Shown here one piece after another: positions 6,788 through 29,036 of a stretch of 37,912 bases of DNA. Under the pieces are notes generated by a model that searched no databases, had not been told where the DNA came from, and was given only the letters and a program-made list of their open reading frames with translations. The number at the start of each line of letters is the position of its first letter. Position 1 is the stretch's first letter. The position numbers were made by a program, and so were the translations under genes. The DNA lies in the NCBI GenBank assembly GCA_945862235.1, contig CAMAYU010000037.1, positions 1 to 37,912 on the forward strand, written 5' to 3'. The DNA is from Schlesneria paludicola DSM 18645 (GTDB lineage Bacteria > Planctomycetota > Planctomycetia > Planctomycetales > Planctomycetaceae).

Positions 6788-8266
6788 TTAAACAAAAGTC
6801 TTCAGGTATTCGCGAACGCATAGCTTCTTGCGGGTGTTATCGGAACTCATGTATCGAATGGTTCCGAAGATGGGACGCTCTGGTCCCCACGCGCGGTCGT
6901 ATCGGCCGAGTACCCAGAAGATGCCGGAGTACGAATTTGGGTTCCGGCCGTCGAGAGCAAATTTGTTGTTAAGCTCGATCATCACCTCGAGCGCGTCGCG
7001 AGGCGTCGCGGTCCATTCGAGTATCTTCTTGCCCCAGAGCATTCGTAGATAGTTGTGGATGCGGCCCTCACGAACGAGCTGCATTTGCGCGGCGTTCCAA
7101 AGTGGATCGTGCGTTGCAGCGGCAGCGAATTGGTCGAGACAGTAAACGAACGGGCGAGGATCGCGCTCGTGCTTCGACAGCGTGGCTTGGGCCCAATCGG
7201 GGAGCGATTCGTACTGGTCGTAATCGTCACGGTGCGAGGTCATGTTGTATCCCAGCTCGCGCCAGGTGATGAACTCGTCAAGCCACGACTCAGCACCGGG
7301 ACTCGCGCCCCACCAGCCTTCACGCTTGCCTCCGGTCTTCTCGCCGAGGCAGAGCGGCGACCATTCCTCTCGCGTCATCAATTCGTGAAACAACTCATGA
7401 GACGAGATGTGACCGAAGTGCAAATACGGCGAAAGGCCGCTGCGATTTTCGGCATCGGGATCGTTCGCCCCGGCCGCGTACTGTGACAGATGCTGGTCCA
7501 AAAACTTCTTCAAGCGATGCCGAGCCAGCGTTGATCCGCCACGCGCTTCGACAATGCCGACCGAGTGGTCAATCGGCAATGCCGCGAGTTCCGCCCTGTC
7601 GCCAGCCAACAACTTCGCTGACACCGGGGGCCAGCGCGTGGTTATCTCCGGCGGCAGCGACTGGATTGGTGGAAGACGCACGCCGCTCAAGGGGTTTGGC
7701 TTCGGAAATTCTTCAAGATGCGGGGGCAATTCCTTCTGCAGGTAAGCTCGGAACGAGAATGCCGTTGTAAAAACGCGGCCCGTGGCGCGCAGCGGCAGTA
7801 GGCCGTTTGAATCCACGGACTCCAGTCGCACCGGCAATCGAGCTGCCGCTGCCGAAACCATGTGTGGCAAAAAGGCTGACGGGAAGTCATCCGTCACGAC
7901 GACACAAGCTCGCTTGGCCAGCGCCAGCAGCAATCCCTTGTCGGCATTGGGCAATGGTTCGACATACGGAAAGTACATCACGCCGGGATTGTTGAGCGCG
8001 TTGATTCGAGCCGCGTTTTCGGCCATGCCGTCGATCATGAAACGATGAATCCGATCGCACGCCCACCGATATTCAGTTCGTAGTGGCTCGAAGATCACCA
8101 GCGGCTTTTGCAATTCAACAGCCAACTCCACCGCGCGCTGCAAGCTGAAATTGGAAGACAGTCGCCGGAATGAAATCATCCAATACAACACGAACTCGCC
8201 GTCCGCTCGAATCGGCGCGTCGTTGCAGTTTTGAATGCGGATCTGTGGAACGAGGCTGGCACTCAT
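6788..8266 (-). CDS. phr: Class II CPD photolyase
   Basis: 492 residues. A flavoenzyme that uses blue/near-UV light to split cyclobutane pyrimidine dimers. The N-terminal alpha/beta domain includes VLYWMISFRRLSSNFSLQRA and a VVTDDFP strand. The C-terminal FAD domain carries the class II motifs LSPYLHFGHIS, WLDEFITWRELGYN, WNAAQMQLVREGRIHNYLRM and LDGRNPNSYSGIFWVLGR. ATG 8266 is chosen because the upstream gene stop (TGA 8268-8266) overlaps it by one base, indicating translational coupling; the longer open frame to 8752 reads antisense-like sequence inside the TspO domain. It is co-transcribed with the SDR-TspO gene and lies downstream of a CarH/LitR-like regulator, the usual neighbourhood for light-induced photolyases. 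Confidence 0.95.
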   Translation of the reverse strand: MSASLVPQIRIQNCNDAPIRADGEFVLYWMISFRRLSSNFSLQRAVELAVELQKPLVIFEPLRTEYRWACDRIHRFMIDGMAENAARINALNNPGVMYFPYVEPLPNADKGLLLALAKRACVVVTDDFPSAFLPHMVSAAAARLPVRLESVDSNGLLPLRATGRVFTTAFSFRAYLQKELPPHLEEFPKPNPLSGVRLPPIQSLPPEITTRWPPVSAKLLAGDRAELAALPIDHSVGIVEARGGSTLARHRLKKFLDQHLSQYAAGANDPDAENRSGLSPYLHFGHISSHELFHELMTREEWSPLCLGEKTGGKREGWWGASPGAESWLDEFITWRELGYNMTSHRDDYDQYESLPDWAQATLSKHERDPRPFVYCLDQFAAAATHDPLWNAAQMQLVREGRIHNYLRMLWGKKILEWTATPRDALEVMIELNNKFALDGRNPNSYSGIFWVLGRYDRAWGPERPIFGTIRYMSSDNTRKKLCVREYLKTFV

Positions 8267-10206
8267 CAGGAATTCAACCTCCAGAGATTCAGGTTCAGGA
8301 TGACGGCGAACGATGTCCACGCCAGATACGGAACCAGCAACCATGCGGCCGTGCGCGACTTGGCTTGAAACGCGAGGCAGGTCGCGACAATTGAGAGGCA
8401 GAGTACGAGGATCTCGGCGAAAGCGAGGCCAGGGCGTTCCAGGCCGAAGAACAGAAATGACCAGACCACGTTGAACGCGAGTTGAATGCCAAACCAATTC
8501 AACGCTGTCCTCGCGGCACTCCACCCGTGGGCATGCCACACGAGCCACGCGGCGACGGCCATCAGAAAATAGAGGGCAGTCCAAACCGGGCCAAAGAGCC
8601 AGTCGGGCGGATTCCAATTCGGTTTCGCCAGCGTTTGATACCAGCCGCCGACGGATGTCGACGTGAACGCCGCCCCCAAACCAGCCGACAGGAAGCAGAC
8701 TGCCATGAATCCAGCCAACCCCGCCACTTGTCGAAATACGGTCGGTTGCCACGTTGTTGTTTCGACTGAACCACGAGCGGTACTCGCGATGCCATTCAGC
8801 ATGCCACCGAAAACGAACTCATGCAGCGGATAGATCGCGTACCAATAGACTAAGCCCGTCAGGCCAATCGAATCGAACACCGCCGTTTGTCGGATGCGCG
8901 AACCGTTGTCCGTCGGCTCGACTTCAAATTCGAGCCACGCTCGGCCGGGAAGCTTCATCTCGGCGGACAATTGCAAACGGCGACTCTGCTCCAGCGACTC
9001 GACTCGCCAGCAATCGACGGGATCGCTGACTCGCAGATCAACCGCATCGCGCCGACCGCGTCGTAAGCCGACTCCACCGACGAGCAAATCAAGCCAGCCT
9101 CGAAGTCTCCACAGCCAATGGCCGTAGTACCAACCGGTTTGACCGCCGATCCGTTGAATCGGAGCGAACGCGGCTACGGCCGGAACATCGACGTCAACTT
9201 CGCGCGAATCGACCAGTCGCGTTCCGAATCGGATTCCACCCCAGCGATGGGGGTGGCCCGAGGCACTGATTGCATCGGACCAGCGTGTGGCCGTCAGTTC
9301 GTGGTCTTCGGTGACGAGCGCTCGTGCGATGGCATCACGGACGCCACGCGGGCAAATCGTGAACACGTCGTGGGCGTGTGAGTTCGTGACCACGGTCGGG
9401 TTTCTCAGGCTATCGACCGGTTTGCGGCCGATGCGAGCGTAAACGGGAGTCACCAGTCCGAGCCACAAGCTCGACAATCGTGGCGAAAGAAACGGCACCG
9501 AAACCATCCCGCGTTTCAACCCGCGCTGTCGCGCGTACTCTTGCATGATGTCACCGTAGGAGACTTGATCGGGGCCGCCGATCTCGAAGATGTCGCTGGA
9601 CCCTTCGGGCAAATCAATCGCGGCCAACAGGTAGTTCAGAAGGTCTTCAATCGCGATTGGCTGCGCGGGCGTTGAGACCCATTTCGGGCAAATCATTACA
9701 GGAAGTTTTTGCACTAACGTTCGGGTCGGTTCAAACGACAAGCTGCCGGAGCCAATCACGATTGACGCCCGGAACTCGACGACTTGTGCGCCGGACTCGC
9801 GCAGGATCGCACCAACCTCTTGTCGGCTGCGCAGATGTTTTGAGAGTTGCTGCTGCTCGCCACCTAGTCCGCCGAGGTAGACGATGCGCCGTACTCCGCT
9901 TTGTTTCGCGGCTTCGGCAAAGTTGCGGGCGGCGATGCGGTCTTCGTCCCCGAAGTCCCTGCCCGCTCCCCTGGAATGCACGAGATAAAACGCGGTTTCG
10001 ATCCCTTCGAGAGCAGACATCAATGTCTCTGGCTGCAACACATCTCCAGCGACAACCTCCGTCTGCGGCCGCACGCGCTGCTGCAAGAACTCTGGTAGCC
10101 GAGCTAGGCAACGAACCAGATGCCCACGCTGTTCAAGTAACGGAATCAATCTTCCTCCGACGTAGCCCGTGCCGCCGGTGACAAGAATTCGCGAACCAGC
10201 AGACAT
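8266..10206 (-). CDS. SDR (NmrA/DUF2867) - TspO/MBR fusion protein
   Basis: 646 residues in three parts. Residues 1-300 form an extended/atypical short-chain dehydrogenase Rossmann domain (VTGGTGYVGG at 9-18, a YLVHS strand, RIVYLGGL). Residues about 320-480 match the DUF2867-type domain that usually follows such SDRs. Residues about 487-646 form a five-helix TspO/MBR membrane domain with the family motifs WYQTLAKPNWNPPDWLFGPV, WTALYFLM, FNVVWSFLFFGL and NLNLWRLN. TspO proteins bind porphyrins and tetrapyrroles and take part in oxidative and light-stress responses. Joining a soluble NAD(P)-binding enzyme to TspO suggests a membrane-attached redox or tetrapyrrole activity, but the reaction is unknown. 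ATG 10206 is chosen over GTG 10242 because the Rossmann motif begins right after it. The stop overlaps the photolyase start. Confidence 0.88.
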   Translation of the reverse strand: MSAGSRILVTGGTGYVGGRLIPLLEQRGHLVRCLARLPEFLQQRVRPQTEVVAGDVLQPETLMSALEGIETAFYLVHSRGAGRDFGDEDRIAARNFAEAAKQSGVRRIVYLGGLGGEQQQLSKHLRSRQEVGAILRESGAQVVEFRASIVIGSGSLSFEPTRTLVQKLPVMICPKWVSTPAQPIAIEDLLNYLLAAIDLPEGSSDIFEIGGPDQVSYGDIMQEYARQRGLKRGMVSVPFLSPRLSSLWLGLVTPVYARIGRKPVDSLRNPTVVTNSHAHDVFTICPRGVRDAIARALVTEDHELTATRWSDAISASGHPHRWGGIRFGTRLVDSREVDVDVPAVAAFAPIQRIGGQTGWYYGHWLWRLRGWLDLLVGGVGLRRGRRDAVDLRVSDPVDCWRVESLEQSRRLQLSAEMKLPGRAWLEFEVEPTDNGSRIRQTAVFDSIGLTGLVYWYAIYPLHEFVFGGMLNGIASTARGSVETTTWQPTVFRQVAGLAGFMAVCFLSAGLGAAFTSTSVGGWYQTLAKPNWNPPDWLFGPVWTALYFLMAVAAWLVWHAHGWSAARTALNWFGIQLAFNVVWSFLFFGLERPGLAFAEILVLCLSIVATCLAFQAKSRTAAWLLVPYLAWTSFAVILNLNLWRLNS

Positions 10207-10254
10207 CAGTGAGATCTCGACGACGGACTGGAACCTGCACACGCAATCAACGCG

Positions 10255-10336: not shown

Positions 10337-11359
10337 TCAGCGACGGAAGTGGCGAGTTTGGACCAGAGAGTACGTCACTCGACCGGAGGTCGGACAGACG
10401 TTCGACACAATTGTCGGCTGAGACTGCATGACGTGTGAAGTCTTCACCGTGGCGGCTGCAGGCAACATCACACTATCAATCACATGAATGACTCCGTTCG
10501 AGGCATCAATGTCGGTCGCAATGAGTCCGGCACCATTGATGGTCGCCGCACCGTTCTTCATCGTGGCGGTCAACGTCCCGCCTTGAACGGTCTTCAATTC
10601 TGCTTTGCTCAACACTTCGTTGGAAAACACTCGACCGGCGACAACGTGAAACTTCAGAATCGCTGCGAGCTTCTCTTTGTTCTCGGGCTTGAGCAGGCTC
10701 TCGACCGTCCCGGCAGGCAGCTTCGCAAACGCTTCGTCCGTCGGTGCGAAAACCGTCAGTGGCTGATCGCCAGCCAACACTTCCACGAGGCCAGCCGCCT
10801 TCGCAGCCGCGAGCAATGTCTTGAACGTTCCCGCCTTGGATGCCGTCGCTGGAATGCTGTCCGCAGAAGGCAGCAGCACCTGATCGATCACGTGAATGAT
10901 CCCATTCGAGCAATGAATGTCGGCCTTCACGACGGTGGCTTGATCAACTCGCACGTGGCCATCCTCGACCTTGATGTTCACTCGCTGACCGTTCACCGTC
11001 GCCGCCGCATTCAGTTTGACGACCTGCGCCGCCGCCACGTTGCCAGCCACGACGTGATACGTCAGCACCGACACGAGTCGGGCTTTGTTCTCTGGTTTCA
11101 GCAGCATCTCCACTGTTCCTGCGGGCAAATTGGCGAACGCCTCGTCGGTGGGAGCAAGAACCGTGAACGGCCCTTTGCTTTGCAGTGTTTCCACCAATCC
11201 GGCGGCCTTCAAAGCCGCCGCCAACGTCTTGAACGAACCCGCCTCGACTGCCGTCGTCACGATGTCTTTTGCCGCCGCATCCGCAGCTATCAAGCTGCCT
11301 TGAGTCAAGCCGATCGCCGCCACCGCTGCCGCACTCAAAAAGAATCTTCGATTCAACAT
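10337..11359 (-). CDS. Secreted fasciclin (FAS1) repeat protein
   Basis: 340 residues. The N-terminus [18 protein letters not shown] is a Tat-like twin-arginine signal (NRRFFLS) with cleavage near the AADA segment. Two FAS1 domains follow, about residues 30-165 and 170-305. Each has the H1 motif [17 protein letters not shown] / [17 protein letters not shown], a middle strand with the YHVV or FHVV signature and the closing I-H-V-I-D motif ([24 protein letters not shown]). The domains are alike and probably arose by internal duplication. FAS1 proteins are extracellular adhesion or matrix modules, and in bacteria they often sit in stress and light-response neighbourhoods. The gene diverges from the CarH-like regulator, sharing a 354-base control region, and has its own terminator. 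Confidence 0.92.
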
Positions 11360-11713
11360 GTCGCTCTCCCTAATCTCTGGTTCTGAGACTTCCTGAGCGA
11401 TGCCCGGCTTGGAATAAGTCGTGCAAATCGTTCAGTGGGATTCAGACCGTCTTCGCCCGAAAGACTTAACCGGATTCTGTTTTTTTCTTCTCGCAATCAG
11501 CTCGCCAGAGCGCCGCTAGATAGCGGGGCGTGACGTTTCTGGTTCGTGGTCACCCCGATTCGAGTGTGACAAGGCATCCGTCCGACGGCCAGACTTTTGA
11601 CTGAAATGGACGTTTTGAATGTTTTTCACGTTGAGAGTTTTCGTGACTGACGGTAGTGTCTCAACCAGCTTGGGAAGTCCGACGAATTCATCAGTCCGCC
11701 ATTGAAGCGAGTC
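11360..11713. promoter_or_regulatory. Divergent control region between the FAS1 gene and the CarH-like regulator
   Basis: 354 bases with no gene. It must hold the promoters for the minus-strand FAS1 gene and for the plus-strand regulator operon. The part nearest the regulator (about 11590-11650) is AT-richer with several TTTTGA/TTTTCA tracts, a TTGACT hexamer (11597-11602) and a small inverted repeat TCACG (11626-11630)/CGTGA (11642-11646) that could be an operator half-site pair. A T-run follows CGGATTCTG at about 11480. No exact CarH-type operator was recognised. Promoter placement is inference. Confidence 0.4.
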
Positions 11714-12619
11714 ATGCAACACCTTCTTTCACCGAAGCAAGTGGCCAATGCGATTGGGGCCAGCGAATCATCGCTCAAGCGGTGGTGTGATCAGGGATTA
11801 TTGACGACGGTGAAGACCGCGGGCGGGCATCGGAGGATTCCGGTTCAAGAAGCTTTGCGATTCGTGCGCGAGCACAATCACGCGGTCGTCGAGCCACACA
11901 TCCTGGGGATGTCAGCTACCGATGACCGCAAGGGACGTCGGATCGAAGGCTGTGCCGAGCGACTGGCGACGGCACTGCTCACGAACAACGAGCAAGCCTG
12001 TCAGGCCATCGTGTTCGATCTGTTTCTGGCTGGTCAGCCAGTGAGTCAAATCTTTGATGAAGTCATCGCCGTGGCGTTTCGGACCATCGGCGAGAAATGG
12101 AAATGCCACGAAGCCGACATTTATGAAGAGCGTTGCTCGTGCCAGATCGCGTTGCGGATCTTGCATGAGTTGCGGTCGAAGCAGACGCCGCCGAACTCGG
12201 GACTCGTCGCGCTGGGCGCGACCATTGAAGGGGATCAGTACGCGTTGCCCGTGACGATGTCCGAGATTGTGCTGCGCGAGGTCGGTTGGGATGCCCGGCT
12301 GCTCGGTTCGTCGATCCCGTTTGATTCGATGGCGAATGCCATCCAGCAGATTGAACCACGAATGTTGTGGCTCAGCATTTCGTTCATCTCGGACGAGTCG
12401 GCCTTCATCGCCGGTTTCAATCGCTTGTTCGAGACCGCGTCCAAGACCAACACCGCCGTCGTTGTTGGCGGGCGAGCGTTAACGACCGAGATTCGGGCGC
12501 GGCTCCACTATTCCGCCTTTTGCGACACGATGCGTCATCTCGAAGAGTTCGCCAAGACGTTGCGTCGGCAGGCTGAGATTGCTCCCACGAAAACTCGCAA
12601 ACCACGAAAGAACGCTTGA
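11714..12619 (+). CDS. MerR-type CarH/LitR-like regulator with degenerate cobalamin-binding domain
   Basis: 301 residues. An N-terminal MerR winged HTH (residues 2-52; SPKQVANAIGASESSLKRWC, then the AGGHRRI wing) is followed by a CarH-like helical bundle (about 80-155) and a Rossmann cobalamin-binding-type domain (about 160-285; LLGSSIP, SISFIS, VGGRAL). CarH/LitR proteins use adenosylcobalamin as a light sensor to repress photolyase, carotenoid and lipid genes. Aligned by eye to CarH, W129 and E139 of the W-x9-E-H motif are kept but the next His is R140. The cobalt-ligand motif E-x-H-x-x-G reads D-Q-Y-A-L-P (174-179). B12 sensing in the standard way is therefore doubtful. ATG 11714 is preferred to TTG 11702 because the HTH starts right after it. 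The next gene follows 7 bases later. Confidence 0.88.
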   Translation: MQHLLSPKQVANAIGASESSLKRWCDQGLLTTVKTAGGHRRIPVQEALRFVREHNHAVVEPHILGMSATDDRKGRRIEGCAERLATALLTNNEQACQAIVFDLFLAGQPVSQIFDEVIAVAFRTIGEKWKCHEADIYEERCSCQIALRILHELRSKQTPPNSGLVALGATIEGDQYALPVTMSEIVLREVGWDARLLGSSIPFDSMANAIQQIEPRMLWLSISFISDESAFIAGFNRLFETASKTNTAVVVGGRALTTEIRARLHYSAFCDTMRHLEEFAKTLRRQAEIAPTKTRKPRKNA

Positions 12620-12626
12620 GGCACCG

Positions 12627-13943
12627 ATGACATTCGCTCGATTCAATCTCGCCGTAACCACGATCGCCAGAACGTGTGTTTTCTCTTGTGTGGCCCATGT
12701 TGTGGTGAACGCGGCTACGACACTGTTTGCAGCCGATCCCACCGCGACTTGGCCGCAGTGGCGAGGTCCGTCGCGCGATGGGCAAGCGGCAGCGACGCCC
12801 GCGTGGCCGGATCAGGTCGATGAAGCGACGCTCACTCAGAGATGGCGAGTCGAATTGCGGCCAAGCTATTCCGGGCCGATCGTCGGTGAGGATCGAGTCT
12901 TCGTCACCGAGACTCGCGGCAAGAAGACCGAGGTTGTGCAGGCATTATCGCGAGCCGACGGCCAAGTCTTGTGGACTGCCGAGTGGCCGGGGGCGACATC
13001 GGTTCCGTTCTTCGCGTGGGAGAACGGCGAATGGATTCGAGCGACTCCAGCCTACGACGGCGAATCGCTGTTCGTCGCAGGAATGCGCGATGTGCTGGTG
13101 TGCCTTGATGCGGCGAACGGCAAGGAACGCTGGCGAGTCGATTTTGTCGAGCGGTTCAAATCACCTTTGCCCACGTTTGGTTGCGTGTCATCGCCGCTGG
13201 TCGATGGCGAGCATGTTTACGTTCAGGCCGGAGCCTCGTTCGTGAAGCTCAAGAAGCGAAACGGCGAGACCGTGTGGCGGTCTCTGCAAGACGGCGGTGG
13301 CATGAACGGCAGCGCGTTCTCGTCGCCGATGAAAGCCACGATCGCAGGTCAACCGCAGTTCTTAGTGCAGACCCGCGAGAAACTCGCGGGGGTCGATGAG
13401 GCCACCGGCAGTGAACTCTGGTCGCAAAAAATCGAAGCCTTTCGCGGCATGAATATCCTCACACCGGTGGTGTTCGGGGATTCGATTTTCACGAGTACCT
13501 ATGGCGGCAAATCTTGGCTGTTCGATCTTACGAAGAGCGGCGATGCGGCCACTGCTGGTAAGAAGATGTCGGTGACCGAACGCTGGCAGAACAAAACGCA
13601 AGGTTACATGTCCACACCGGTCGTCATCGACGGGCACATCTACACGCATCTTAAGAATCAGCGTTTCGCGTGCATCGATTTCGCAACGGGCAAGGAACGC
13701 TGGGTGACCACGCCGTTCGGCAAGTATTGGAGCCTCGTCGCACAAGGCAAAAAAATCCTGGCCCTTGATGAACGGGGCGACTTGTTGCTGATCAACGCCA
13801 ATCCGTTGAAGTTTGAGTTGCAGGATCAGCGCCACGTCAGCGATTCGCCAACATGGGCGCATTTGGCTGTGTGCGGCGATGAAGTTTTTGTCCGCGACCT
13901 GAACGGGCTGACGAGCTTTCGTTGGCCTGCCAAGAAACAGTAA
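12627..13943 (+). CDS. Secreted PQQ-type beta-propeller (BamB-like) protein
   Basis: 438 residues. A signal sequence spans about residues 1-35, ending near FAADP. The mature protein opens with WPQWRGPSRDG, the hallmark of a large planctomycete family of PQQ-like propeller proteins. Repeating blades carry the G-x-x-x-W motifs (DGQVLWTAEWPG, NGKERWRVDF, NGETVWRSL, TGSELWSQKI, TGKERWVTTPFG). No dehydrogenase catalytic motif is seen, so it is more likely a scaffold or binding protein than a quinoprotein enzyme. ATG 12627 has GAGG just upstream. It follows the regulator by 7 bases and precedes the FAD oxidoreductase by 14, so it is in the same operon, but its part in the pathway is unknown. Confidence 0.85.
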   Translation: MTFARFNLAVTTIARTCVFSCVAHVVVNAATTLFAADPTATWPQWRGPSRDGQAAATPAWPDQVDEATLTQRWRVELRPSYSGPIVGEDRVFVTETRGKKTEVVQALSRADGQVLWTAEWPGATSVPFFAWENGEWIRATPAYDGESLFVAGMRDVLVCLDAANGKERWRVDFVERFKSPLPTFGCVSSPLVDGEHVYVQAGASFVKLKKRNGETVWRSLQDGGGMNGSAFSSPMKATIAGQPQFLVQTREKLAGVDEATGSELWSQKIEAFRGMNILTPVVFGDSIFTSTYGGKSWLFDLTKSGDAATAGKKMSVTERWQNKTQGYMSTPVVIDGHIYTHLKNQRFACIDFATGKERWVTTPFGKYWSLVAQGKKILALDERGDLLLINANPLKFELQDQRHVSDSPTWAHLAVCGDEVFVRDLNGLTSFRWPAKKQ

Positions 13944-13957
13944 AGGATGACGCCATC

Positions 13958-15244
13958 ATGAAGATCGCGATCATCGGAGCCGGAATTTCCGGACTGACGG
14001 CGGCGTATCGACTCAGTCTCTCCCATGACATCACGCTGTTTGAGGCCAACGACTATCTCGGCGGGCACACGAATACCGTTGAGGTCGATTTGGCCGGAGA
14101 GCGGCAGGTGATCGACACTGGGTTCATCGTGTTCAACGATTGGACGTATCCCAATTTCATTGAACTGTTGAACGAACTGGGCGTCCGATCGCAGGCGACA
14201 TCAATGGGTTTCAGTGTGCGGTGCGATGCGGCGAACTTGGAGTACAACGGTTCGTCGCTGAACGGACTGTTTGCCCAACGCCGGAATTTACTGCGGCCGA
14301 GCTTCTACCGGATGCTGGCCGACATTCTGCGATTCAATCGCGACGCGCCCGAATTGGTGCTGAGCGGCCCGACGACGGACCAAACAACGGTGGGTGAGTT
14401 CCTCGCGAGGCAGCGGTACTCGCGCGAGTTTGCCGAGCATTATCTGCTGCCGATGGGAGCCGCGATCTGGTCGTGCCCGGTCGGGATGTTTGAAAACTTT
14501 CCGATCCGGTTCATCGTCGAGTTCTACCGCAATCATGGTTTGTTGAACGTTCGCAATCGGCCGACGTGGCGGGTCATTGAAGGTGGCTCGCGAACTTACG
14601 TCGCCAAGATGGCCGAGCGGTTTCGGGATCGCATTCGACTCAGTACGCCGGTTGAGTCGGTTCGCCGCTCGGCAGACGACGTGGTCGTCGTCCCGCGAAA
14701 TCACCCGCCGGAAACCTTCGATCAGGTTGTGTTTGCCTGTCACAGCGACCAAGCTTTGCGGATGTTGGCCGATTCGACCTCGACCGAGCGCGACGTGTTG
14801 TCCGAGTTTCCTTACGGACGCAACCTCGCCGTACTGCACACCGATCAAACTGTCTTGCCGAAGCGGCGGCGAGCTTGGGCGAGTTGGAATTACCATCTCA
14901 CCGGGCCGTCATCGAATTCTGCCAGCCAGACAGCCACGGTGACTTATCAGATGAACCTTTTGCAACGTCTGCAATCAAAGCACGTCTTCAACGTGACGCT
15001 CAGCAACGCGACGCTGAACAATAACGAGCGAATTGACCCGGCGAAGGTGCTGCGGCGATTCGAGTATCACCATCCGATCTTCACTGTTCAGCGTGCCGCC
15101 GCGCAGGCACGGCATGGCGAAGTGATCAACGTCAACCGGACTTCTTACTGCGGCGCGTATTGGGGCAACGGCTTCCATGAAGATGGCGTCGTCAGTGCCT
15201 TGCGCGTTTGTGAGGCCCTCATGCCGAAGGAGCCGCGACCATGA
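13958..15244 (+). CDS. NAD/FAD-binding amine-oxidase-like oxidoreductase (COG2907 type)
   Basis: 428 residues. The N-terminal dinucleotide-binding motif [15 protein letters not shown] (G7-x-G9-x-x-G12) is followed by an acidic strand end (LFEAND) and the LGGHTNT segment typical of this amine-oxidase/desaturase-like flavoprotein family. The C-terminus has the closing FAD motif around [20 protein letters not shown]. Members of this family occur almost invariably next to DUF1365 and CFA-synthase-like genes, in clusters linked to photo-oxidative stress and to fatty-acyl modification (desaturation during furan fatty acid formation has been proposed in Rhodobacter). The start ATG is at 13958. The stop overlaps the next ATG (ATGA at 15241-15244), showing translational coupling. 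The precise reaction is inferred only from context. Confidence 0.85.
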
Positions 15245-16089
15245 GAAGCTGCCTTTATGAAGGTGTCGTGCAGCATCGACGGTTCGATCCGATTGAGCAT
15301 TCGTTTCGATATCGGTTGTTTCTCGTCTTCGTGGACTTAGCGGAACTGGACTCGTTGTTCGGACGACGTGGAGTCTGGTCCACTCGCTGGCCAGCACTGG
15401 CGCGATTCCGACGTGCCGACTATTTGGGAGACCCAGTTCGCCCGTTGGACGACTGTGTCCGCGATTTGGTTGAGCAGCGAACCGGGCATCGACCATCTGG
15501 ACCAGTCGGGGTGCTGACCAATTTTCGCTACTTCGGCTTCGGCATGAATCCGGTCAGTTTTTATTACTGCTTCGACACGGCTGGCGAGCGGGTTGAAACC
15601 GTCGTCGCAGAAGTCAGCAACACACCTTGGAATGAACGGCACTGCTATGTGTTGAGCTTCGCAGTCTCGGACGCTGCTGCGATGCATTTGCACGATGAGC
15701 AAACCGGGACGGAATCCCAATCGACGGGGCGGTTTGAGAACCCAAAAGAGTTTCACGTTTCGCCGTTCATGCCGATGGACATGACCTATCGCTGGCGAGT
15801 CACCGAACCGCGCGAGCGGCTGGCGGTGACCATCGAGAACTACTCGAACGACACCAAGCGCTTCGACGCGACGCTGTCACTGCAACGAAGACCGATCACG
15901 CGCTGGCAGCTTGCTCGCGCGTTGCTGCGGTATCCCTTGATGACGATGCAGATTTTTTTGGGCATCTACTGGCAAGCGCTGCGGCTGTGGCTGAAGCGAG
16001 TCCCGTATGTGCCTCATCCACGAGTTGCCGTTCCGATGCCGACGGCGTCTGGGCCGCAGCTTTCATCCTCGAAACAGACGACACTATGA
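15241..16089 (+). CDS. DUF1365 family protein
   Basis: 282 residues. It matches DUF1365 by its opening [20 protein letters not shown], the central [36 protein letters not shown], the [17 protein letters not shown] block and a C-terminal amphipathic region ([19 protein letters not shown]) that may sit on the membrane. No enzymatic activity is firmly established for the family; conserved His/Asn/Tyr residues suggest catalysis. It is joined to both neighbours by ATGA overlaps (15241-15244 and 16086-16089). Its fixed place between the FAD oxidoreductase and the CFA-like methyltransferase implies a step in, or presentation of substrates for, fatty-acyl modification. Confidence 0.9.
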
Positions 16090-17405
16090 CGACAGCCTAC
16101 GCAACCAAATCCACGAACTCGCCGTCGAACGACGACGCTGCACCTGCACCTGCACCGAATCGCATGGGGTTTGTAAGTCGGTTAGCCCGACGACTGGTGT
16201 TACAGAAGCTGCAAGAGTTGAACGGCGGGACCATTCAATTGGCCGATGCGACTGGCGCAAAAACGCTCGGTCGCGGCGGCGACTTGCAAGCAGCGCTGCA
16301 AGTCCACAACCCAGCCTTCTTCCGCCATGCCGTTCTGGGCGGAAGCTTGTCGGTGGCCGAGTCGTATCTGCGCGGCGATTGGGACTGCGACGATCTGACG
16401 GCCTTCATTCGGATTTTCGTGCGGAACATCGAGGCGACGGATCAGCTTGATCGCGGGCTGTCGCGAATCTCCAAGTGGGTCAACCGGCTGTATCACCACT
16501 GGCACGCCAACAGTAAGTCGGGAAGTCGTCGCAACATTCACGCTCATTACGATCTCGGCAACGACTTCTTTCGGCTCATGCTCGACGACACGCTGGCGTA
16601 TTCGAGTGGCATCTTTTTGTCGGCCACCAGCACACTGCACGAGGCTTCGCTGGAGAAAATGGATCGCATCTGCCGCAAGCTCGATCTGCGTTCGAGTGAC
16701 CATCTGCTGGAGATCGGCACCGGCTGGGGCGGGTTGGCAATTCACGCGGCCAAGCAATTCGGTTGCCGCGTTACGACGACGACGGTCTCACAGCAACAGT
16801 TTGATGTCGCTCGTCAGCGGATCGACGAAGCAGGGCTGTCCGATCGCGTGACGTTGCTGTTGCAGGACTATCGCGACCTGACGGGCCAGTTCGACAAGCT
16901 GGTCTCCGTTGAGATGATCGAAGCGGTCGGGCATCGGTACTACGACACTTACTTCCGCAAATGCAGCGAGTTGCTCAAGCCCGAGGGGACGTTCGTGCTG
17001 CAAGGGATTGTGATGCCGGATCGTCGCTATGCTAAGTATTTGAAATCGGTGGACTTCATTCAGAGATACGTCTTTCCCGGCGGTTGCCTACCATCGATGA
17101 GTTCCATGTTGGAGTCGATGTCGCGCGCAACCGACCTGCGATTCGTTCACGCCGAAGATTTCGGCACGCACTACGCCCAGACTCTGCGCGAGTGGCGGCA
17201 ACGATTTCATGAGCGATTGGATGACGTTCGCGAGCTGGGATTTCCCGACCGATTCATTCGCATGTGGAACTACTATCTGAGCTACTGCGAGGCGGCGTTC
17301 GAGGAACGGTTCACCGGCGTTGTGCAAATTCAATTCGATAAACCACGCTGCCAACGCGATCCAATCGCCATCGGTTCCCGTGCCGCAGCGGGGAGGTTGG
17401 TATGA
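16086..17405 (+). CDS. Cyclopropane-fatty-acid-synthase-like SAM methyltransferase (1)
   Basis: 439 residues from ATG 16086, which overlaps the DUF1365 stop. The N-terminal CFA domain includes [14 protein letters not shown] (residues 91-104) and [13 protein letters not shown] (154-166). The SAM-binding motif [10 protein letters not shown] lies at 207-216, followed by [10 protein letters not shown] (274-282). CFA synthases methylate double bonds of membrane phospholipid acyl chains. Aligned by eye with the E. coli enzyme, the catalytic Glu (E279) is kept and the Tyr of THYAQTL fits, but the bicarbonate-site Cys is Ser (YSSG, S174) and the His is Gln (Q306). It may therefore make methylated, non-cyclopropane products, like the methyltransferases of the 10-methyl or furan fatty acid pathways. 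The stop overlaps the start of a second CFA-like gene. Confidence 0.9.
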
Positions 17406-18451
17406 GCCTGATGTCCTTGGGCATTGAAGCGGTGGAACGAGGTTTGATCCCGGATGTGATCACACGCATGGCGATTCGGCGATTGTGCGAGCAGCGCCTG
17501 CGTGAATCTGATCGCGACAGTGACAACGCCGATTCAACTGAACCCCAAGCGTTTGTCGAGTCGATGCGTGCGGGGCCGATCGCGCCTGTTCCAGAGAAAG
17601 CCAACGAACAGCATTACGAATTGCCGCCAGAGTTCTTCACCGCTGTACTCGGCCCACACCGCAAATACAGCTCTTGCTTCTGGCCGACCGCAGACTGTTC
17701 GTTGGCCGAGGCTGAAGCAACGGCACTTGAGATCACTTGCCAGCGAGCCGAGCTAGCCGATGGCCAACAGATTCTGGAACTCGGTTGTGGCTGGGGCTCG
17801 CTGTCGTTGTGGATGGCCGACCGGTATCGAAACAGTCGCATTACGGCAGTCTCAAATTCGACTGGGCAAAGGCGATTCATCGAATCGGAAGCGGCCGCGC
17901 GTGGGCTCACGAACTTGCACGTCATCACGGCGGACATGAACCAGTTCGTGACGGAGTCGAACCGCTTTGACCGTGTCGTCTCAGTTGAGATGTTCGAGCA
18001 CATGCGGAACTACGAATTGCTGTTGGAACGAATCGCGTCGTGGCTGCGACCGGACGGCCGGCTGTTCGTGCATCATTTCTGCCATCAGCAACTCGTCTAT
18101 CCGTTTGAAACTGAGGGCGATGCGAACTGGATGGGCCGCTACTTCTTCACCGGCGGTTTGATGCCGAGCGAGAACATGCTGCGGCAGTTCGACCGGCACA
18201 TGACGGTCGTCGAGCAATGGCGCTGGGACGGCAGGCACTATCAACGCACGTCCGAAGCGTGGCTCGCGAACTTGGACGCTCATCGCCGCGAGGTGTTGCC
18301 GATTCTTGTCGCAACTTACGGACGCCCTGAGGCCCGCCGCTGGTTTCACCGTTGGCGTTTATTTTTCCTCGCCGTGTCCGAGTTGTTTGGTTACGCGAAC
18401 GGCACGGAATGGTTCGTGTCACATTCGCTGTTGCAGCCGAGCGGAAAGTAA
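17402..18451 (+). CDS. CFA-synthase-like SAM methyltransferase (2)
   Basis: 349 residues. The SAM-dependent methyltransferase core has motif ILELGCGWGSLSLWMA, the TAVSNSTGQRRFI strand-loop and VVSVEMFEHMRNYE, which corresponds to the CFA catalytic Glu segment. The substrate-channel motifs HYELPPEFFTAVLG and YSSCFW align with the CFA family. It is shorter and more divergent than the preceding paralogue and belongs to the group often annotated as CFA family or coclaurine-N-methyltransferase-like. Two consecutive CFA-like genes in one coupled operon suggest successive or alternative acyl modifications rather than redundancy. The start overlaps the upstream stop (ATGA 17402-17405); the next gene begins 4 bases after its stop. 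Confidence 0.88.
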   Translation: MSLMSLGIEAVERGLIPDVITRMAIRRLCEQRLRESDRDSDNADSTEPQAFVESMRAGPIAPVPEKANEQHYELPPEFFTAVLGPHRKYSSCFWPTADCSLAEAEATALEITCQRAELADGQQILELGCGWGSLSLWMADRYRNSRITAVSNSTGQRRFIESEAAARGLTNLHVITADMNQFVTESNRFDRVVSVEMFEHMRNYELLLERIASWLRPDGRLFVHHFCHQQLVYPFETEGDANWMGRYFFTGGLMPSENMLRQFDRHMTVVEQWRWDGRHYQRTSEAWLANLDAHRREVLPILVATYGRPEARRWFHRWRLFFLAVSELFGYANGTEWFVSHSLLQPSGK

Positions 18452-18455
18452 ACCC

Positions 18456-19274
18456 ATGACGCCACTGACCGCGATGTTGCTGAACTCGGCGCTGGTCGTG
18501 ATTGCCACGATGACGTGCTTGTGGTTGTTCAGCCTCGCACGCCGCGATGCCAGTATCGTCGATCCTTTTTGGGGAACCGGGTTCATCGTCGTGACTGGGT
18601 TCACACTGACATGGACTCCAGTAGCACAAGTGGTCGAGCGATCATGGTTGCTTGCCGCGCTGACGACGGTTTGGGGTTTGCGGTTGTCGCTGTACCTGCT
18701 GTGGCGAAATTGCGGACACGGTGAAGACCGACGCTATCGAGCGATGCGTGAACATCACGGGCCGCGTTTCTGGTGGGTCAGTCTGCTGACGGTCTTTCTG
18801 TTGCAGGGAGCCATCCTCTGGATTGTGTCGATGCCAATTCAAGTCGCGATGGCCGCAACGACATCGCCGCCGCTCGGCTGGCTCGATCTGGCGGGCGTGG
18901 CTCTGTGGGGCGTCGGCCTGTTGTTTGAAGCGGTCGGGGATTTTCAAATGGCTCGTTTTCAAGCCGACCCTCAAAACGCTGGCCAAGTGATGGATCGCGG
19001 CCTGTGGCGACTGACTCGGCACCCGAATTACTTCGGCGACTTTTGCGTCTGGTGGGGCTTGTACTTGATCGCGTCATCCGGCGGTGCCACATGGACGATC
19101 TTCAGCCCGCTGCTGATGTCGTTCCTGCTGCTGAAGGTTTCCGGTGTGACACTGTTGGAGAAAACCATCACCAGTCGTCGTCCCGAGTATGCCGCTTACC
19201 AGATGCGAACCAGCTCATTCTTTCCGTGGCCGCCGAACTCGTGTTGCGGTGATCGCCCGCCTCGCCCCGAATGA
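18456..19274 (+). CDS. DUF1295 integral membrane protein (steroid 5-alpha-reductase-like)
   Basis: 272 residues with about six or seven hydrophobic segments. The C-terminal motif GLWRLTRHPNYFGDFCVWWG is the signature of DUF1295, which is related to the steroid 5-alpha-reductase and isoprenylcysteine methyltransferase fold; the RHPNYFG turn is the likely NADPH- or SAM-contacting part. The N-terminal RRDASIVDPFWG motif is also family-typical. Members usually accompany CFA-like genes and are thought to reduce or methylate lipid substrates in the membrane. The start ATG 18456 lies 4 bases after the upstream stop, so it closes the operon; a palindromic repeat about 100 bases downstream may end the transcript. 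Confidence 0.9.
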   Translation: MTPLTAMLLNSALVVIATMTCLWLFSLARRDASIVDPFWGTGFIVVTGFTLTWTPVAQVVERSWLLAALTTVWGLRLSLYLLWRNCGHGEDRRYRAMREHHGPRFWWVSLLTVFLLQGAILWIVSMPIQVAMAATTSPPLGWLDLAGVALWGVGLLFEAVGDFQMARFQADPQNAGQVMDRGLWRLTRHPNYFGDFCVWWGLYLIASSGGATWTIFSPLLMSFLLLKVSGVTLLEKTITSRRPEYAAYQMRTSSFFPWPPNSCCGDRPPRPE

Positions 19275-26415: not shown

Positions 26416-26892
26416 ATGCGTTTTCTCCTCATTGATCGAATCACCGAGCTGGTGCCGCATCAGTCGGTCACGGCTCTCAAAAATTTGTCGCTGTCCGAAG
26501 AGTATCTGGCTGACCACTTTCCCGGTTTTCCCGTCATGCCCGGCGTCTTGATGCTTGAAACGCTGGTTCAGGCGGGTGGGTGGTTGATTCGGCACTCAGA
26601 AGACTTCGCTCAAAGCACCATCCTGCTGAAAGAGGTGCGGGCGATCCGATACAACAGCTTCGTTTCCCCCGGTAACACACTTCAAGTCGAGATGACCGTT
26701 AAGAAACGTGATGGTGGTCTGTGGGACTTTAATGGCAAAGGTACGGTGAACGGAACTTCGGCAGTTTCCGCCCGGTTGACGCTCGAAGCGTTTAATCTCG
26801 CCGACACTAACTCAGAGCTGGCCGAGTCCGATTCACACCGCCGCGAGGTTTATCGCGGGCTTTTCCACCAAATTTGGAAGCCCACAGCTTGA
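26416..26892 (+). CDS. FabZ-like hotdog dehydratase (1)
   Basis: 158 residues. A hotdog-fold 3-hydroxyacyl-ACP dehydratase relative. The core motif HFPGFPVMPGVLMLE places catalytic His at 34 and Glu at 48, matching FabZ. The N-terminus MRFLLIDRI is the usual FabZ start, and the C-terminus carries an extra acidic, Ser-rich tail of about 25 residues. It would dehydrate 3-hydroxyacyl-ACP to trans-2-enoyl-ACP. It begins a fab cluster (FabG 107 bases downstream). A TTGACC/TATTTC hexamer pair, with a spacing of only 15, lies about 70-90 bases upstream and could be a promoter, but that is weak. Confidence 0.85.
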   Translation: MRFLLIDRITELVPHQSVTALKNLSLSEEYLADHFPGFPVMPGVLMLETLVQAGGWLIRHSEDFAQSTILLKEVRAIRYNSFVSPGNTLQVEMTVKKRDGGLWDFNGKGTVNGTSAVSARLTLEAFNLADTNSELAESDSHRREVYRGLFHQIWKPTA

Positions 26893-26999
26893 GTACGATT
26901 TCGTGAACGCTTTGTGTCCGTCAGGGCATTCACGCTGGAATACATTAGATCGGAATATCCAAGTCGATCGACGATTTTGGGATGAAGGGTGACTCTTCG

Positions 27000-27755
27000 A
27001 TGAAGCTTGCAGGACGAATCGCGTTGGTGACCGGCGGAAGTCGCGGGATTGGGCGGGCTATCGTTTGCCAGTTGGCGGAAGCGGGGGCGAAGGTGGCCTT
27101 CGTCTACCAGTCGAACCGCGACGCTGCCGAAAACTTGGCCAAGGAACAAGCGGACTTGGGCCGCGAGGTGTGGGCCTTGCAGGCCGACGTGAGCAAAAAA
27201 CCGGAAGCCGATGCCGTAGTCGAACAAGTGCTGGCAAAGTGGTCGAAGATCGACATCCTCGTCAACAACGCCGGGATCATTCGAGACAAGCCGATCCTCG
27301 CGATGTCGATCGAAGAATGGCAACAGGTGATCGACACCAACCTGACCAGCGTGTTCAACTTCTGTCAGGCGGTCGTTCGCCCGATGATGTCGGCTCGCTA
27401 TGGGCGGATCATCAATATGTCGAGCGTCTCGGCAGACTTCTCGAACCCCGGGCAGGCCAACTACGCCGCGAGCAAGGCGGGAATCGAAGGGTTCTCGCGC
27501 TGTATGGCAGTCGAATACGCCAAGCGGGGCATCACGGTGAACTGCGTGGCTCCTGGATTTATCGAAACGGACATGACCGTGGCGGTCGTCAATGCGGCCG
27601 GTGACAAGATTAAGAATGCGATCCCCGTGAAGCGACTGGGCAAGCCAGAAGACATTTCCAACGCCGTGCTGTTCTTCGCCTGTGAAGAGGCCAGCTACGT
27701 CACCGGACAAGTGTTGAAGGTAGATGGTGGACTCACGCTGGGCGGCATGGGCTGA
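27000..27755 (+). CDS. fabG: 3-oxoacyl-ACP reductase (FabG-like SDR)
   Basis: 251 residues. NADPH-dependent reduction of 3-ketoacyl-ACP to 3-hydroxyacyl-ACP in type II fatty acid synthesis. Classical SDR motifs: TGGSRGIGRA (11-20) for the cofactor, NNAG (89-92), catalytic S142, Y155 and K159 (NMSSVSADFSNPGQANYAAS), and a PGFIETDM segment after the active site. ATG 27000 is preferred to ATG 26982 because AAGGGTGA gives a well-spaced ribosome site for it. It lies between the first FabZ-like gene and the ACP, but a palindromic repeat separates it from the ACP, so the operon may be interrupted there. Confidence 0.92.
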   Translation: MKLAGRIALVTGGSRGIGRAIVCQLAEAGAKVAFVYQSNRDAAENLAKEQADLGREVWALQADVSKKPEADAVVEQVLAKWSKIDILVNNAGIIRDKPILAMSIEEWQQVIDTNLTSVFNFCQAVVRPMMSARYGRIINMSSVSADFSNPGQANYAASKAGIEGFSRCMAVEYAKRGITVNCVAPGFIETDMTVAVVNAAGDKIKNAIPVKRLGKPEDISNAVLFFACEEASYVTGQVLKVDGGLTLGGMG

Positions 27756-27774
27756 CGGTTAGCTGCTTGTTGAA

Positions 27775-27849
27775 AAACGTAGGGTAAGCCTTTGGCTTGC
27801 CCGTCTTCCAACAGCAATTACGGGCAAGCGCGACGCTTACCCTACGTTT
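27775..27849. repeat. 75-bp cruciform repeat between fabG and the ACP gene
   Basis: Outer arms AAACGTAGGGTAAGC (27775-27789) and GCTTACCCTACGTTT (27835-27849) are perfect. Inner arms GCTTGCCCGT (27795-27804) and ACGGGCAAGC (27820-27829) are also perfect. It begins after a GTTGAAAAA sequence similar to the end of the 20606-20704 element. It could act as a terminator or attenuator between fabG and acpP, though no T tract follows. Confidence 0.8.
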
Positions 27850-28052
27850 CTAATAGGCCGTTGTCGGTCGCTGTGGATTGAATAGCGGGATTTCGCTGCG
27901 TCGCCTCAAGGCGGCGTGGCTCTGAAATAGGTGTGGGTTCGATTGGCCGGAGCGTTGCCCCGGCGGTCAATCGTCAATTCAGGGTGGCAATGGGTGGGAT
28001 GGTGGTTCGCGGGCTGGGTGTTCGCCGAGCTGCCTCCCCAGGAGATTTTTGG

Positions 28053-28451
28053 ATGCCTTCACGCGACGAGATTTTGGAAAAGGTTCGAGAAACATTGGTC
28101 GATGCGCTGGGACTGGATGACGATGAGGTCACGCCCACCTCGCGCCTTAAAGCCGATTTGGGTGCCGAGTCGATCGACTTCTTAGACATTGTGTTTCGCC
28201 TGGAAAAGAACTTCAACACGAAGATTCCTCGCAACGAACTGTTCCCCGAGAGCCTCTTCTCGGCGGACGCGGGCTTTGCTGAGAACGGCCGCGTCACCGA
28301 AAAGGGACTGATCGAACTGAGGACGCGTCTGCCTCACGCCGATCCCGCGACGATCGACAAGCTCGCAGCGGATCCGAAGGTTGAGAATGTCGAGGACTTG
28401 TTCACGGTCAACATGGTCGTGAATTTTCTGGCCAACAAGCTGGGTGCGTGA
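28053..28451 (+). CDS. Acyl carrier protein with internal insertion
   Basis: 132 residues, against about 80 for a usual ACP. The N-terminal half is a clear ACP: four-helix start, DDDEVTPTSRLKADLG, then the phosphopantetheine site ES(40)IDFLDIV, where the usual DSL reads ESI. Helix 3 (EKNFNTKIPRNELFP) is followed by roughly 45 extra residues (about 65-112; FSADAGFAENGRVTEKGLIE and beyond) before the final helix VEDLFTVNMVVNFLANKL. ATG 28053 has AGGAGA upstream. It lies in a fab gene cluster. It may be a specialised carrier rather than the housekeeping ACP; that is inference from the insertion and context. Confidence 0.88.
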   Translation: MPSRDEILEKVRETLVDALGLDDDEVTPTSRLKADLGAESIDFLDIVFRLEKNFNTKIPRNELFPESLFSADAGFAENGRVTEKGLIELRTRLPHADPATIDKLAADPKVENVEDLFTVNMVVNFLANKLGA

Positions 28452-28499
28452 TTGGCCGAATCGCTACTTTAGAGCGAGTCCTTTGTAATCGAGTGCGTC

Positions 28500-28520
28500 C
28501 CGGTAACGGATCGTTGCCGG
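28500..28520 (+). other. Small hairpin in the ACP-FabZ2 spacer
   Basis: CCGGTAACG (28500-28508) pairs with CGTTGCCGG (28512-28520) with one G-U-type mismatch around a 3-base loop. It has no T run, so it is not a terminator. It may be an mRNA structure near the ribosome site of the next gene. Confidence 0.3.
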
Positions 28521-28541
28521 TGACGTCCCGAAGGGTGTTTC

Positions 28542-29036
28542 ATGCGTTGGTTCTGGGTCGATCGGTTCACCGAATTCGAGAGTGGTTCTCACGCCAAGGC
28601 GATTAAAAACGTCACCTTGGCGGAAGAGCATCTGCACGATCATCAACCCGGTTTCCCGGTCATGCCCGCTTCGCTGATTCTCGAAGGGTTGGCTCAAACG
28701 GGTGGGCTGCTGCTCGGTGAGAGCCGTCAGTTTTCCAAGCTGGTCGTGCTAGCCAAGGTTCCGCGTATGACCTTTCACGGTTGGGCGGGACCGGGCGACA
28801 CGCTCACTTATTCGGCCAAGCTGACGGACTCGCGCGATGAAGGCGGGATGGTGGATGTAACGGCTCATGTGGGCGACCGCTTGGTGGCTGACGGTGAGAT
28901 TGTTTTTGCTCACGTCGATGAAAATGAAGCGGGAGCGGGCCGTGCCGATCAGATGAATTGTGTGTTCACTCTGCTGCGCGGCGTACTGGACATCGGTAAA
29001 GCAGGTAATGGATCGAAGGCGGCCAGTCCCGCGTGA
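28542..29036 (+). CDS. FabZ-like hotdog dehydratase (2), divergent
   Basis: 164 residues, a paralogue of the protein encoded at 26416. The signature is HQPGFPVMPASLILE, with catalytic His 34 and Glu 48 at the same positions as in the first copy but HFPG changed to HQPG and PGV to PAS. It may be a dehydratase of altered specificity or a structural partner, as in heterodimeric FabZ-type enzymes. The C-terminus adds about 25 residues (GNGSKAASPA). ATG 28542 has GAAGGGTG upstream. It lies between the ACP and FabF. Confidence 0.83.
   Translation: MRWFWVDRFTEFESGSHAKAIKNVTLAEEHLHDHQPGFPVMPASLILEGLAQTGGLLLGESRQFSKLVVLAKVPRMTFHGWAGPGDTLTYSAKLTDSRDEGGMVDVTAHVGDRLVADGEIVFAHVDENEAGAGRADQMNCVFTLLRGVLDIGKAGNGSKAASPA

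Follow-up and report, generated by a model that had tools for sequence, protein, structure and literature searches.

Regulators of the CarH and class I LitR type (Thermus, Myxococcus) combine a MerR-type helix-turn-helix (HTH) domain with a four-helix bundle and a Rossmann cobalamin domain. The published signature of cobalamin photoreceptors comprises the motifs GxxW, EH, GxxH, and GxxxP, as set out in PMC11796333, which also describes CtMerR of Chloracidobacterium thermophilum (PDB 8jbs and 8jbt), a protein with EH and GxxH, as binding adenosylcobalamin (AdoCbl). Related modules have taken other paths: CarA of Myxococcus is a CarH relative that works without B12, the class II LitR proteins of Pseudomonas (PplR1-3, PmlR1/2) are CarH-like without B12 and lie beside photolyase, SDR, FAD oxidoreductase, and cyclopropane-fatty-acid-synthase (CFA)-like genes, and the SCHIC domain of AppA holds another tetrapyrrole in a cobalamin-type fold. 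On the DNA-binding side, BldC of Streptomyces, a protein of 68 residues with no effector domain, is reported to bind 9-bp head-to-tail repeats of the form AATTXXXX(C) via Arg30 and His46 (PMC5859096), and in the LitR-LitS pair of Streptomyces a CarH-type regulator has a sigma factor as its output, as outlined in PMC12705666.

We analyzed a regulator gene of Schlesneria paludicola DSM 18645 and its surroundings in a window of 37,912 nucleotides, by which we mean the whole stretch of DNA under study (Table 1). A preliminary description, made from the sequence alone, had viewed the encoded protein as a CarH-like regulator that has lost the cobalamin-ligating His yet still controls a light-type gene set, possibly by sensing something other than AdoCbl or by relying on a partner.

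Table 1. Positions of the regulator, its pocket motifs, the adjoining gene sets, and the predicted operator sites in the 37,912-nt window
Feature	Position	Strand	Remarks
Photolyase-like ORF	6788..8752	-	TIGR00591 phr2, match from about residue 181; ORF bounds
SDR-DUF2867-TspO/MBR fusion, one ORF	8266..10242	-	ORF bounds
Two-fasciclin-domain protein	10337..11359	-	First gene of the divergent set
Divergent promoter region	11360..11713	.	Common to the two gene sets
Predicted operator site 1	11416..11438	+	Near the fasciclin-side start; 25.6 bits, held-out matrix
Predicted operator site 2	11594..11634	-	Tandem 9-bp repeats near the regulator-side start; held-out matrix
Regulator	11714..12619	+	BldC-like HTH (residues 4-52), four-helix bundle B12-binding_2 (81-150), Rossmann B12-binding-like (166-265)
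Upper motif W-K-C-H-E-A-D-I-Y-E-E-R-C-S-C	12098..12142	+	Residues 129-143; retains W129, has E139-R140 for EH, and shows C131 and C143, typical of the clade
Lower motif D-Q-Y-A-L-P	12233..12250	+	Residues 174-179; Tyr176 in place of the His of D-x-H
PQQ/BamB-type beta-propeller protein	12627..13943	+	7 bp after the regulator; start by eye
FAD amine-oxidase-like oxidoreductase	13958..15244	+	Start by eye
DUF1365 protein	15241..16089	+	
CFA-synthase-type methyltransferase 1	16086..17405	+	Start by eye
CFA-synthase-type methyltransferase 2	17402..18451	+	
DUF1295 protein	18456..19274	+	Start by eye

Domain layout and cobalamin pocket of the regulator

The regulator ORF encodes 301 amino acids plus stop, with an in-frame TTG at position 11702 as a possible alternative start upstream. 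Among Pfam families, HTH_17 matched the HTH and B12-binding_2 matched the four-helix bundle over its cut-off, and the Rossmann part was matched by B12-binding (PF02310) at 29 bits (E 1e-6), slightly below the cut-off of 32.1. By sequence, the closest solved relative is the AdoCbl photoreceptor CtMerR (8jbs; phmmer E 1e-26), and the score against the NCBIfam CarH equivalog was 50.5 bits at a cut-off of 400, a value that none of 246 genomes of the same phylum reached. An AF2 model built from 56 sequences (mean pLDDT 92) matched the CtMerR cobalamin domain best among PDB structures (Z 27.1, rmsd 2.0 over 217 residues; Foldseek and VIA-align), followed by photocobilins (Z 23-24), CarH (5c8d; Z 20.8), and the heme-binding SCHIC domain of AppA (Z 20.0). 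The predicted model thus has the four-helix bundle and Rossmann cobalamin fold of CarH, and this fold, common to cobalamin and heme domains, reveals no ligand for the regulator.

The name CarH-like suits the protein in this predicted fold but not in its HTH, which aligns with that of BldC (6ama, E 9.7e-6), R23, W24, and H39 being the counterparts of Arg30, Trp31, and His46. The NCBIfam BldC model gave 32.7 bits (E 4.9e-8) at a cut-off of 77. Where CarH has the recognition helix RxWERRY, the regulator has SESSLKRWCD; the CarH-type homologues of the same phylum with an aligned HTH (18 rows) carry RxWERR or RxWEQR.

In the alignment to 8jbs, the EH of CtMerR becomes E139-R140 and its EGDLH becomes E172-G-D-Q-Y176, which turns GxxH into G173xxY176; unchanged are G126xxW129, G198xxxP202, S221xS223, and G252G253. 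The CarH motif D/ExHx2G/P...SxT/V...GG correspondingly reads D174-x-Y176-x-x-P179 with SxS and GG retained, and Wx9EH reads W129 x9 E139-R140. Two of the four photoreceptor motifs, GxxW and GxxxP, are therefore present, and in the other two, EH and GxxH, the His alone is altered. This alignment bears out the motifs that the preliminary description had read by hand at residues 139-140 and 174-179, including the absence of the cobalamin-ligating His and the persistence of W129 and the overall fold motifs.

These replacements are shared widely. The homologue set comprised 152 rows, from which 31 duplicates were removed to leave 120 counted proteins plus CtMerR (one fragment of 112 residues was omitted). 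Tyr176 was found in 116/120 distinct homologues and His at this position in 0/120, with Arg140 in 116/120, W129 in 117/120, and G253 in 120/120; when rows at least 90% alike were removed, Tyr176 and Arg140 each stood at 107/111. The His is indeed gone, as had been described, but this is not the loss of one protein. A substitute His, the finding that would have spoken against such a loss, was not seen as an invariant or near-invariant column in the cobalamin domain, the best columns over 114 rows being H151 (70%) and H275 (69%). The signature columns had a mean entropy of 0.20 vs 1.88 for the whole domain, and 0 of 20,000 random column sets were as low; the 114 rows used here had been selected on positions 139, 140, and 176, which fixes those three columns, and the conservation of the pocket appears in the unselected counts over 120 homologues as well. 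Low entropy and fixed replacements argue against simple decay, and judged from the sequences, the pocket belongs to the best-conserved parts of the cobalamin domain and appears to be remodelled rather than decayed.

Some exceptions were noted. Five locus rows (L244, L245, L229, L242, and L240) carry Thr or Ser instead of Tyr at position 176, so that fixation of the lower residue is not complete. Two divergent homologues, L086 and L087, have C at 129, miss D-x-H/Y, and have lost most of the signature; they are possibly decayed or repurposed paralogues.

Spread among planctomycetes and probable order of the pocket changes

Regulator-like proteins were found in 79/120 genomes of the family (E 1e-10) and in 141/198 genomes of the class (E 1e-15), and GTDB contigs contained matches at 429 places, of which the best 80 were examined; to go by their record names, we take these 80 to be planctomycetes save for L131 ("bacterium"). 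Two weak matches were all that a search of a plasmid collection returned. The replacement of the His, as read from the homologues, is found across the class and is not a loss in a single protein. A search for CarH in the same phylum matched 81/246 genomes at E 1e-12, and some of these loci served as outgroup.

Homologues of the same phylum without a BldC-like HTH in the alignment (30 rows, 18 of them with a CarH-type helix and the rest with an HTH that was not aligned) have His176 in 30/30 and EH in 29/30 cases. On the branch with the BldC-like HTH, DxH is kept in three rows with EH (L203, L232, and CtMerR). With near-copies removed, DxY occurs on this branch in 27/35 rows with EH vs 127/129 rows with ER, and the rows with ER are marked by three cysteines that are rare in those with EH: C131 (110/129 vs 1/35), C143 (125/129 vs 1/35), and C270 (112/129 vs 2/35). 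The single EH row with both C131 and C143 is L242.

For a tree, 90 rows were picked, 22 of them from the best 80 of the 429 GTDB loci, and columns 139, 140, and 176 were excluded. Proteins with ER and DY fell on one side of a branch with an SH-aLRT of 89, beside groups with EH and DY, and the fewest state changes that the tree allows are 2 for column 140 and 12 for column 176. The two changes at position 140 fit one replacement of His by Arg and one return, in L242, whose EH lies within the ER clade. Many forks of the tree are open, among them those with the three DxH rows that belong to the branch with the BldC-like HTH, and CtMerR sits on a long branch. The pattern suggests that His176 changed to Tyr first and that His140 changed to Arg later, in one clade that also carries the three cysteines; the polarity of the first step comes from the CarH-type outgroup, as change counts cannot separate gain from loss.

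Gene neighbourhood and predicted operator

From the regulator to the DUF1295 gene, the genes of the window are separated by 4-14 bp or overlap (starts by eye), so that regulator, PQQ protein, FAD oxidoreductase, DUF1365 protein, the two CFA-type methyltransferases, and DUF1295 protein probably form one operon. In the divergent set, the photolyase-like ORF matched phr2 with E 1.8e-100 and 337 bits, below the cut-off of 550, and had no Pfam match at E 0.01. A hairpin-like repeat was seen by eye between the SDR-DUF2867-TspO ORF and the fasciclin gene. Elsewhere in the window, in the region 26416-29033 (+), two similar-looking short ORFs (26416-26889 and 28542-29033) resemble FabZ-like dehydratases by eye and are followed by a ketosynthase-like ORF at 29075.

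To place this gene set in a wider frame, we surveyed 154 loci longer than 9 kb, 144 of which contained the regulator and 125 of which remained after removal of duplicates. The most frequent neighbours were sigma-70 factors (50 loci), FAD oxidoreductases (42), CFA-type proteins (40), and PQQ proteins (40), followed by DUF1295 (32), DUF1365 (30), fasciclin (25), DUF1501 (21), polyketide cyclase (20), and an SDR-DUF2867 family whose members may or may not carry TspO (16). Less common were phr2 (13), sulfatase (11), cry/phr (9), the TspO domain (9, the window included), and UvdE, GTP cyclohydrolase I, ferrochelatase, and yfcH (8 each). In 20 control regions from the same genomes, 17 tested families were absent except for DUF1501 (2), a control that informs on frequent families only and is too small for those in about one-tenth of the loci or fewer, among which are the clearest light genes (phr2, cry/phr, and UvdE). 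Light-inducible genes of class II LitR in Pseudomonas include phrB, ufaM, and folE according to PMC9758184, and furan fatty-acid genes are reported as part of the singlet-oxygen regulon of Rhodobacter (PMC6852236). Taken across the 125 loci, the neighbours suggest a light or photo-oxidative gene set, to which a divergent sigma factor is often joined, and the light-type gene set claimed for this locus agrees with that picture. The CFA-type cluster was seen with ER regulators only (40/100 vs 0/23 with EH), so that EH regulators may govern a different regulon.

The sigma-70 neighbours are RpoD-like, mostly divergent from the regulator, and in 49 of the 50 loci within 3 kb, which makes a pair similar to LitR-LitS; they accompany both EH and ER types (13/23 EH loci; examples are L226:10101-11462, L049, L055, and L132). 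The best homologue of this sigma factor in the regulator's own genome, 41% identical and encoded at C2:3736-4602, has no operator above 9 bits in its locus (L260) and is at most a candidate for the regulator's partner.

Upstream of the 100 ER regulators, the strongest hexamer was CGTTCA (147 observed vs 23.4 expected, in 65 loci), and it is also enriched upstream of the 23 EH regulators (26 vs 5.4). In loci with more than 150 bp of upstream DNA it was oriented forward 149 times vs 25 times in reverse, with 35 same-strand pairs at a distance of 9 bp. De novo, the predicted operator emerged as the 9-bp direct repeat AAAtCGTTC AAAtCGTTC A, which matches the BldC half-site of an AT-rich four, any four, and C. 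The combination that characterizes BldC, the Arg30/Trp31/His46 triad with 9-bp direct repeats, is thus found here with a predicted operator.

A first matrix gave 232 matches above 14 bits in 4.56 million positions of regulator loci vs 7 in the reversed-sequence control, and 1 match in 0.80 million positions of the control regions. At this threshold, a site lies within 400 bp upstream of the regulator in 77/125 loci (64/100 ER, 13/23 EH, and 0/2 others) and is absent from that interval in 48/125. A second, held-out matrix was built from 56 sites of 88 distant ER loci, to which neither the window nor its close relatives contributed; it recovered 15/23 EH loci (control 2%) and 9/12 of the held-out close ER loci (the window being one of these 12), at a background of 2-4% of random stretches. 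With this matrix, the two strongest predicted sites of the window both fall into the divergent promoter region, for which the preliminary description had proposed a check of light-dependent DNA binding: site 2 reaches 28.4 bits in its best 23-mer (11603-11625, -), with overlapping registers at 14.6 and 8.7 bits, and the next separate site in the window scores 8.0 bits. A simple repeat search of the intergenic region 11360-11713 by itself missed the operator, and a promoter scan of 11300-11760 yielded no sigma-70-type match.

Gene starts within 400 bp of a predicted operator belonged to the sigma factor in 43 loci, fasciclin in 18, FAD oxidoreductase in 11, and polyketide cyclase in 9, some of them sharing the regulator's own intergenic region. 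The own genome contains 60 operator-pattern matches vs 22 in the control. Among the 30 of these 60 that were scored at locus level, only the two window sites and C164:4230 (28.2 bits) exceeded 20 bits, and three more sites above 14 bits lie inside ORFs. Contig C164 (L296:900-7250) carries its 28.2-bit site before a probable second fasciclin gene and a 13.3-bit site before another fasciclin gene, with an SDR and a FAD oxidoreductase on the same contig (all by eye); it is likely a second locus of the regulon.

Candidate signals and relation to known systems

Computation gave the sequence changes and how far they are fixed, a predicted fold and operator, and the neighbourhood; from these we infer the order of the changes, repression, operon structure, light or photo-oxidative input, and the nature of the ligand. 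With moderate confidence, we view the protein as a direct-repeat regulator of a light-damage regulon, probably a repressor under its own control, and as one that senses by its remodelled pocket or thiols and not by His-ligated AdoCbl. Its BldC-like HTH would bind the 9-bp head-to-tail repeats of the divergent promoter region and so control both the set that runs from the regulator itself to DUF1295 and the set of fasciclin, SDR/TspO, and photolyase genes, most likely as a repressor of its own gene as well. The CarH-type domain would probably still form an oligomer and carry the conserved pocket, in which Tyr176 below and Arg140 above stand in for the two cobalt-facing His and C131 and C143 are added beside the upper motif. 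Given these two replacements, photolysis of His-ligated AdoCbl is not expected to be the switch; the signal would be read by the remodelled pocket, through another tetrapyrrole or a cobalamin held otherwise, and/or through thiols.

Among the more specific readings, it is unlikely that the protein still is a cobalamin photoreceptor that is switched by light with its cofactor base-on or with Tyr176 (perhaps Cys131) as the cobalt ligand. Such a role would suit the retention of GxxW, GxxxP, SxS, GG, and E139, that is, of most pocket residues besides the two His, as well as the fact that, in fold and sequence alike, an AdoCbl photoreceptor is the closest relative with a solved structure. However, the two replaced positions are those of CarH H142 and H177, described as proven key residues for AdoCbl binding in passages of PMC11796333, and the only Tyr named in these passages is at the position of CarH His132, not at that of the lower ligand. 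A PduO-type adenosyltransferase in 40/40 relatives searched, the own genome included, also fits a cobalamin photoreceptor, and AdoCbl may be available in these cells (CobA-type enzymes occur in 3/40 genomes, the own one not among them); yet PduO is likewise encoded in genomes without a listed regulator match (G005, G006, G008, and G009), and we discarded the adenosyltransferase as a marker of B12 use since it is uninformative. Rather unlikely, too, is a SCHIC-like use of the former cobalamin pocket to sense heme or a porphyrin that acts as a photosensitiser, with Tyr176 as a tyrosinate ligand. Tyr-ligated hemes are known, Tyr176 and Arg140 are fixed, ferrochelatase and TspO domains occur among the neighbours, and the SCHIC domain of AppA binds heme instead of cobalamin in the same fold; but the heme ligand of SCHIC is, according to PMC9144470, a His shifted by two residues, and the regulator has no His at 174-178.

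A thiol sensor of photo-oxidative stress, in which oxidation of C131 and C143 (and C270) would change oligomerization and DNA binding, we regard as improbable when taken alone. In its favour, the three cysteines accompany R140 in most of the ER clade and are rare in the EH group, and UV-repair genes lie among the neighbours, along with CFA-type genes such as occur in a singlet-oxygen regulon. Against this, C131 is missing from 19/129 and C270 from 17/129 ER rows, ER arose once on the tree so that the co-occurrence of cysteines and R140 amounts to one event, and the EH group without the cysteines keeps both operator (13/23) and sigma neighbour (13/23). We give still less weight to a regulator of the class II LitR type with a ligand-free domain that is bound by a separate photoreceptor, such as a short LOV protein. 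Class II LitR proteins are described as making no use of B12 and governing phrB, FAD oxidoreductase, SDR, and ufaM genes, and PmlR2 as being released by a short LOV protein (PMC9758184). By motif, no LOV domain was found in the own genome (97.3% complete), where one with a divergent motif could escape, or in the 125 regulator loci, although the same pattern does detect LOV kinases in relatives. BLUF was absent from 36/40 genomes, the own one included, and present in 4/40; the suggested reliance on a partner of this kind thus found no backing. The class II operator TGTACA-N12-TGTACA is absent from the window, and the pocket is strongly conserved. A looser LOV pattern did hit an ORF of 143 residues in the own genome, which we rejected as the sequence around the motif is unlike a LOV domain; among relatives, LOV-domain histidine kinases have a patchy distribution (L317, L316, L310, and L304). 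A vestigial pocket in a constitutive regulator whose cobalamin domain only oligomerizes is very unlikely: both ligand His are gone from the regulator and nearly all homologues, as it would predict, but few columns of the domain are better conserved than those of the pocket, where the replacements are fixed instead of drifting.

Carried from this one protein to the whole class, the remodelled-pocket reading becomes more tentative. It would then describe class-wide planctomycete sensors in which the CarH pocket was rebuilt in two steps, with Tyr below and with Arg and two cysteines above, to read another signal related to light (heme or porphyrin with a Tyr ligand, a non-His cobalamin, or a thiol switch), coupled to a direct-repeat operator of the BldC kind and, for many of the species, to a sigma factor as partner. 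Our searches of the open-licence PMC literature showed neither a description of this regulator group nor one of a light or photo-oxidative regulator for Planctomycetia, and the present work would name a likely one. The natural series from DxH with EH over DxY with EH to DxY with ER and cysteines would show a B12 photoreceptor fold changing its chemistry at a constant predicted DNA target. Since the operator, the gene set, and the residues are specified, what can replace AdoCbl in a CarH-type switch becomes directly testable.

Among characterized proteins, the nearest relative is CtMerR because the DNA-binding half of the regulator is BldC-like and not CarH-type. Architecture, HTH sequence, cobalamin-domain fold, GxxW, and GxxxP are alike, and the regulator differs by ER, GxxY, and three cysteines in place of EH and GxxH. 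From CarH and class I LitR it is set apart, despite the shared build, by the absence of RxWERRY, by Wx9ER and DxY, and by the predicted 9-bp BldC-like repeat. AppA is not a DNA-binding HTH protein, and its SCHIC domain differs by the displaced heme His that the regulator lacks. CarA, for which PMC9304148 reports a retained B12 motif and EH but no Trp, is the reverse case. Class II LitR proteins have no recognizable B12-binding domain, whereas the regulator has PF02310 below cut-off and the full predicted fold; their operator T(G/A)TACA-N12-TGTA(C/T)A does not occur in the window even when 2 mismatches are allowed, and the short LOV partner that they possess has no equivalent by motif in the own genome. 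BldC shares the HTH triad and the AT-rich 9-bp head-to-tail repeats ending in C, but the regulator joins them to an effector domain and stays under the NCBIfam BldC cut-off. As for LitR-LitS, LitS is described as an ECF sigma factor (PMC12705666), whereas the sigma factor that adjoins 50/125 homologues here is RpoD-like with sigma-70 regions 2 and 4 and is not beside the window gene. By its sequence, the regulator thus has the build of CarH and LitR and departs from CarH in three features (HTH, EH, and DxH) and from class II LitR in three others (domain, operator, and LOV), and it is best placed close to CtMerR in a separate group with a BldC-like HTH.
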